This document shows positions 15,190-45,881 of a stretch of DNA of 64,000 bases, in pieces. Position numbers and translations under genes: made by a program. The number at the start of each line of letters is the position of its first letter. Within the stretch, counting starts at the first letter, position 1. The stretch spans positions 209,282-273,281 of the forward strand of contig JAENZX010000003.1 in the NCBI GenBank assembly GCA_016841045.1. The letters run 5' to 3'. The notes under the pieces were generated by a model that saw only the letters and a list, made by a program, of their open reading frames with translations, had not been told where the DNA came from and made no database searches. The DNA comes from Thermincola carboxydiphila (lineage in GTDB: Bacteria > Bacillota > Thermincolia > Thermincolales > UBA2595).

Positions 15190-15202
15190 AACAACAAAAA
15201 AT

Positions 15203-15348
15203 TTAGACTTGCGGGTGATTTAAAAAGGGAATCAGGTTAAGCCTGAGCGGTCTCCGCCACTGTAGCCAGGGAATGCCCTTACATTATGCCACTTATAGGG
15301 AAGGCGTAAGGTGTGTTGTGATCTGGAAGCCAGGATACCTGCCCGGAG
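15203..15348 (+). ncRNA. Cobalamin riboswitch
   Basis: The leader has the conserved cobalamin aptamer parts in order: GGGAATCAGGT near 15227, GCCTGAGCGGTC.CCGCCACTGTA, and the B12 box AGCCAGGATACCTGCC at 15328-15343. It sits directly upstream of the B12 operon starting with cobU, so adenosylcobalamin is expected to repress the operon. Confidence 0.95.
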
Positions 15349-15415
15349 TTTGCCATTCAGTCCTTCGAGAGAAAGGATTATGGTGCGGGGTTTCCAAACT
15401 ACCCTAGTTTACCAT

Positions 15416-45212: not shown

Positions 45213-45216
45213 TAAA

Positions 45217-45243
45217 AAAAGGGGCTCAAGCTGAGCTCCTTTT
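45217..45243. terminator. Bidirectional terminator between Nudix gene and DUF1858 gene
   Basis: AAAAGGGGCTCA pairs with TGAGCTCCTTTT (one mismatch, 3-nt loop). It separates two convergent genes and has T-runs on both strands. Confidence 0.82.
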
Positions 45244-45256
45244 GAGTTTATGATCC

Positions 45257-45451
45257 TTATTGGTTTTCGAGTTCTTTTAAATCTTTTAATAACGCGTCAA
45301 GGTTAATTCCGTGAACTTGAGCAGCCTGCCCAAGACTTTCGTATGCAACCCCGCCTCAACCAAGGCACTTGAGACCATATTTGGCGAAGACGCTTAATGA
45401 CTTGGGATACTTAGTGAGCACCTCTAAAATTACAGTGCTTTCTGTTATCAT
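45257..45451 (-). CDS. DUF1858 protein with in-frame UGA, candidate selenoprotein
   Basis: The minus strand encodes a 64-residue DUF1858 protein if the UGA at 45356-45358 is read through. The sequence reads VILEVLTKYPKSLSVFAKYG, then LKCLG-UGA-GG, then YESLGQAAQVHGINLDALLKDL. Family members have the redox motif CLGC at this place; here the second Cys is UGA, giving CLGU, a classic CxxU arrangement. ATG 45451 is behind GGAGGAG, and the frame stays open with clear family similarity on both sides. A SECIS-like hairpin follows the UGA. The ORF is missed by standard gene calling because of the stop. Against it: a single TGC-to-TGA mutation would look the same, but the intact ribosome site, frame, hairpin and conservation speak for selenocysteine. 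Confidence 0.78.
45316..45334 (-). promoter_or_regulatory. Candidate bacterial SECIS hairpin
   Basis: On the minus-strand transcript CUUGGGC (45334-45328) pairs with GCUCAAG (45322-45316), 7 bp with one G-U pair and loop AGGCU. The loop G lies about 30 nt after the UGA and within the first two loop bases, as I recall the bacterial SECIS rules, and the sequence around the loop (GCAGG..UGC) resembles the E. coli fdhF element. Confidence 0.62.
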
Positions 45452-45556
45452 GTTCTCTCCTCCAATCCTGATGAAAATGTTTTATGGATATTTTGTTTTG
45501 ATTAATATTACTTATACCAGGAGGGGGTAAATTCCTCCTGGCAGGTGCAAATTTTT

Positions 45557-45748
45557 TTAGGAATTTTGCTGGTTAGTGGACTGGGCCATCATTCGTTCCG
45601 CTTTTTCGATTGCTAGCCGAACAAGGTTACCGCAGTTTCTAGAGGAAACCTCACCCCATCCTTCCTGTTGTACGGTATCTAAGACGCCAAGCTCCTTCGC
45701 AAGTTCATACTTGAGAGAATCAGACATAATTCCACGTCTTCTTGACAT
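45557..45748 (-). CDS. Alpha/beta-type small acid-soluble spore protein
   Basis: The 63-residue product has the alpha/beta SASP core: LKYELAKELGVLDTVQQEGWGEVSSRNCGNLVRLAIEKAE, close to the family consensus (E.A.ELGV...G.WG..SR..G..V..L...AE), including a GPR-type cleavage region near ELAKELGV. These proteins coat spore DNA, protect it from UV and are made in the forespore under sigma-G. ATG 45748 follows GGAGG. A Cys in the helix is unusual. The gene stands alone. Confidence 0.92.
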   Translation of the reverse strand: MSRRRGIMSDSLKYELAKELGVLDTVQQEGWGEVSSRNCGNLVRLAIEKAERMMAQSTNQQNS

Positions 45749-45881
45749 CTATAACCTCCTATTTATTTATTGCACCAGTTTTATTTTCTGTGAAAATAAT
45801 AATATTTATACGAAGTAATAATTATAAGTTTCCCCAGCTATGGTTATAATATTTTCGATAATACTTAAAGGAGGATTTTAT

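Follow-up and report, generated by a model that had tools for sequence, protein, structure and literature searches.

Probable selenocysteine in place of the second cysteine of a small DUF1858 protein encoded downstream of a spore-protein gene in Thermincola carboxydiphila

A short gene with a single in-frame UGA may be broken, may belong to a genome in which that codon has another meaning, or may encode a selenoprotein. This question is raised by a minus-strand gene at 45257–45451 of the window, the 64,000-nt stretch of Thermincola carboxydiphila DNA that was analysed here (host genome 4.16 Mb, 75 contigs). Read from 45451 to 45257, the frame is MITESTVILEVLTKYPKSLSVFAKYGLKCLG-UGA-GGVAYESLGQAAQVHGINLDALLKDLKELENQ*, which comprises 64 codons and a TAA stop; direct reading confirmed that its only TGA is codon 32 (45356–45358, minus strand), as the preliminary description of the locus had stated. 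The good ribosome site mentioned there is also present, as a Shine-Dalgarno-like GGAGGAG (45457–45463, minus strand) 5 nt before the ATG start codon. Directly past the stop codon, a hairpin followed by a T run (45214–45243, minus strand) can be read from the sequence as a probable intrinsic terminator.

The 64-residue protein exceeds the curated cut-offs, across the domain, of both DUF1858 (PF08984; 64.8 bits, cut-off 32.2) and TIGR03980 (70.5 bits, cut-off 44.95), and the UGA was confirmed to occupy the position of the second Cys in the DUF1858 CxxC motif. The AlphaFold model (mean pLDDT 89.9) matches the solved structures of this family, 2k53, 2k5e and 2fi0, with TM-scores of 0.73–0.88 by query length. 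TIGR03980 denotes the Cys form, the hybrid cluster protein-associated redox disulfide domain; the match is full-length, and the Cys form differs in having Cys as the second residue of CxxC and in lacking a SECIS hairpin in the homologues tested. The fold is also matched by the N-terminal domain of YtfE (5fnn, 5fny; TM-score 0.65–0.79 by query length), and a profile match was found to ScdA chains (PF04405 N-terminal domain). However, the window protein has no di-iron domain and scores below the cut-offs of the iron-sulfur cluster repair (ScdA/YtfE) families (best 30 bits against 259, over the N-terminal part only), and is a relative of these proteins rather than a member.

If a Cys codon had simply mutated to TGA in a dead gene, or if the base were wrong, a lone TGA among relatives that mostly carry Cys would be explained, but the same TGA would not be expected to recur. 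The DUF1858 gene was found in nine of the ten genomes of the order, that of the window included, and all nine holders have the TGA; the tenth genome (G007), in which the gene was not found, is 63% complete. Further TGA-bearing members were found across the phylum in families f16, f25, f36, f39, f61, f69, f134 and f137, while a peptide-pattern scan of genome contigs gave eight loci, mostly from genomes already found. The UGA is kept across species by the relatives, at a position aligned to Cys in the Cys homologues; TGC in all relatives had been part of a refuting outcome named in the preliminary description. In pairs of 19 sequences, mean pN/pS was 0.28/0.82 before the UGA and 0.26/0.70 after it; selection on the protein is similar on both sides, so the part past the UGA is evidently translated. 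Identical TGAs in many independent genomes and purifying selection beyond them, together with the conserved and covarying hairpin described below, make a pseudogene or sequencing error extremely improbable, and we rejected this explanation.

A second alternative is that UGA is read as some other amino acid, through an altered genetic code or a suppressor tRNA. The frame would indeed be open if TGA were a sense codon, but eight open frames of at least 200 codons in the window end in TGA, which is therefore an ordinary stop, and neither the Cys found at this position in homologues nor the presence of a full Sec machinery is what a code change would lead one to expect. The genome encodes SelA, SelB and SelD, and a tRNA-Sec gene (selC) was detected at 73.9 bits (cut-off 47). 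All four components for which a search had been proposed are therefore present, and the SelD frame itself carries one in-frame TGA. Reassignment of the code was accordingly rejected; we give it hardly any credence.

Decoding of UGA as Sec in bacteria calls for a SECIS hairpin, for which a published model specifies a loop of 3–9 nt, a stem of 4–16 bp, a G at loop position 1 or 2, a distance of 16–37 nt from the UGA and an MFE of at most -7.5 kcal/mol (PMC13188914). A candidate lies at 45316–45334 (minus strand), CUUGGGCA-GGC-UGCUCAAG, and its values fall within every term of the model as given in that source: a 3-nt GGC loop beginning with G, an 8-bp stem, 29 nt from UGA to loop and -9.0 kcal/mol. 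The hairpin and its loop G had been noticed in the preliminary description, where the stem was put at 7 bp and the distance at about 30 nt. Folding energy was dropped as evidence, since the 57-nt region is not more stable than its shuffled versions (z 0.15); the 28-nt hairpin core is modestly better than its shuffles (z -1.75). With folding energy so unremarkable, the case against chance is a comparative one, resting on the conserved UGA, the covarying stem and the frozen synonymous codons.

This comparison was made on 23 CxxU sequences, in which the six pairs between columns 27–32 and 36–41 are formed in 138 of 138 cells, while slid controls were paired in no more than 44% of cells. The covariation score was 0.334, against 0.165 in shuffles, with none of 500 shuffles as high. 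Four of the six pairs are invariant, so the covariation rests on the other two: at pair 29–39 the window's order has G-C or G-U where the other CxxU sequences have A-U, and pair 27–41, which occurs as C-G, U-A, U-G and A-U, couples the third position of one codon to the second position of another. Synonymous identity is 1.00 at codons +9, +10 and +11 after the UGA, compared with 0.16–0.82 at other tested codons. The 26 Cys homologues form at most four of the six pairs. The hairpin is thus conserved among the relatives, with compensatory changes; a lack of such conservation had been part of the refuting outcome named in the preliminary description.

Taken together, we consider it very probable, on sequence evidence, that the gene is that of a small selenoprotein of the DUF1858 family in which UGA 32 is read as Sec by means of the SECIS at 45316–45334. 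The substitution of Sec for the second Cys, as first suggested for this locus, was backed by every test that was run; the accompanying suggestion that the selenoprotein might be new was not. An entry for "DUF1858 domain-containing protein, PF08984, CxxU" is tabulated in two accounts of prokaryotic selenoproteomes (PMC9312934, 2022; PMC13188914, 2026), with WP_012065717.1 as the example, and shares its Pfam family and its CxxU motif, as tabulated, with the window protein. On the strength of these tables the window gene does not define a new selenoprotein family. Main-text passages of the two primary papers that PMC9312934 cites showed no DUF1858 entry, and the question of first discovery is left to that review.

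In the mechanism that we propose, the hairpin would recruit SelB carrying Sec-tRNA-Sec, and this complex would decode UGA 32 as selenocysteine. The product would be a helical protein of 64 residues whose Cys29-x-x-Sec32 pair most likely cycles between the thiol/selenol and selenenylsulfide states, and this small protein could function in redox reactions as a carrier or a reductase. Cys-type DUF1858 domains, with CxxC, presumably have the same redox role. Such Cys-type proteins are also encoded in the window's genome, one of them as a 295-residue fusion of DUF1858 to a nitrite/sulfite reductase domain (NIR_SIR; locus L126, 3577–4464, minus strand). Comparative sequence evidence supports the recoding, the SECIS, the machinery and the fold; the likeliest function is that of a small redox protein with a Cys-Sec pair, a role that, with its presumed chemistry and partner, is suggested by the motif and the relatives.

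How often Sec has arisen in this family was considered with a tree built on 56 rows and 58 columns, in which many forks are unresolved. The 23 CxxU rows form a group that includes just two Cys rows, both of genome G152, and it looks as if these Cys copies represent a return to Cys. In G152 (loci L149 and L150), a copy of this DUF1858 subfamily with UGA occurs together with two that have Cys. In L098, the Cys copy examined for G152, the hairpin is partly decayed and retains four of the six pairs. Placed among the Cys sequences are the CxxU protein L039 and a pair of proteins, L132 and L135, with the reversed motif UxxC. L039 (G001:C13) shows that the window's order has another CxxU DUF1858, separate from the first, and the stem of its SECIS-like hairpin is unrelated (GCCGC-AGGU-GCGGC); it was omitted from the 23-sequence pair count because this hairpin is shifted by one base. 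The CxxU of L039 is apparently an independent gain of Sec.

In the UxxC proteins, TGA takes the place of the first Cys (1585–1587 in both L132 and L135) and the second Cys is TGC. The carriers are two species of one genus (G371 and G405), a third species of which has TGT, and both UxxC genomes hold SelB. The candidate hairpin lacks a G at loop positions 1 and 2 and so lies outside the SECIS model; we have moderate confidence, from these two sequences, that the UGA at the first Cys is read as Sec. Three gains of Sec in DUF1858 are the simplest reading, although fewer are forced by the well-supported branches.

Directly upstream of the window gene, on the same strand, is a 63-codon gene for an alpha/beta-type small acid-soluble spore protein (SASP) at 45557–45748 (minus strand; PF00269, 27.7 bits, cut-off 22), here called SspF-like after the Bacillus proteins. 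A same-strand SASP gene within 700 nt upstream was found at 17 of the 25 UGA loci with context, namely the window, its eight orthologues in the order, L101, L105, L119, L122, L123, L145, L180 and L181, compared with none of 42 Cys loci; Fisher's p of 3e-10 is not a true probability, because the loci are related by descent. Of eight SASP relatives, four pass the PF00269 cut-off, three are just below it and one has no Pfam hit but matches the window SASP by phmmer. The other neighbours vary by family: those in the window are minC and a NUDIX gene, and elsewhere the genes are different. Elsewhere in the window, a cobalamin riboswitch was detected at 15196–15360 (plus strand; 85.6 bits).

The SASP mRNA appears closed through a long-range pairing of GGUGCAA (45770–45776), upstream of the SASP start, with UUGCACC (45544–45550), just past its stop and followed by a hairpin, CCAGGAGG/CCUCCUGG (45517–45541; all minus strand). 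The arms co-vary by locus, for example as GGTGTAA/TTACACC, GGTGCGAAA/TTTCGCACC, GGGTGCAGA/TCTGCACCC and GAGTACGAG/CTCGTACTC. Across 18 loci the mean own-pair score was 22.9, against 17.8 for cross-pairs, and none of 5000 permutations was as high; a search of Rfam gave no match at the arms. In the spore, the pairing possibly helps to stabilise the mRNA or to control its translation.

The linkage hints at a possible connection of the Sec form with spores, which is compatible with the selenoprotein reading and additional to it. The Sec form might work in sporulation, for instance with a redox function in the forespore or during germination, and be transcribed with or after the upstream SspF-like SASP, but we hold this only tentatively. 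It would account for the SASP gene beside UGA and not Cys loci, and for its retention in families whose other neighbours differ; on the other side, the SASP is absent from seven UGA loci and divergent at one, the related loci do not give independent counts, and a stable hairpin between the two genes may end the SASP transcript. The broader proposal, that Sec DUF1858 forms a distinct sporulation-tied subfamily marked by the SspF-like SASP, with about three gains of Sec of which one is UxxC (G371, G405), is likewise possible rather than probable. Neither the SASP linkage nor the UxxC form is mentioned in the DUF1858 table entries of PMC9312934 and PMC13188914. Literature searches that combined DUF1858 with spores, or selenoproteins with SASPs, turned up nothing about the SASP linkage, which is weak evidence as subscription papers lay mostly outside the search; the repeated position of Sec DUF1858 beside a SASP gene appears not to have been described before.

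The DUF1858 gene of the window illustrates UGA recoding cleanly, within a selenoprotein family already known though still uncharacterised; it is a gene that a gene caller treating UGA as a stop would cut to 31 residues. Part of what it adds is that, in another lineage, Sec has apparently moved to the first Cys. That a SASP gene is linked to the Sec form and not to the Cys form offers a testable hint as to where the selenoprotein may be used.
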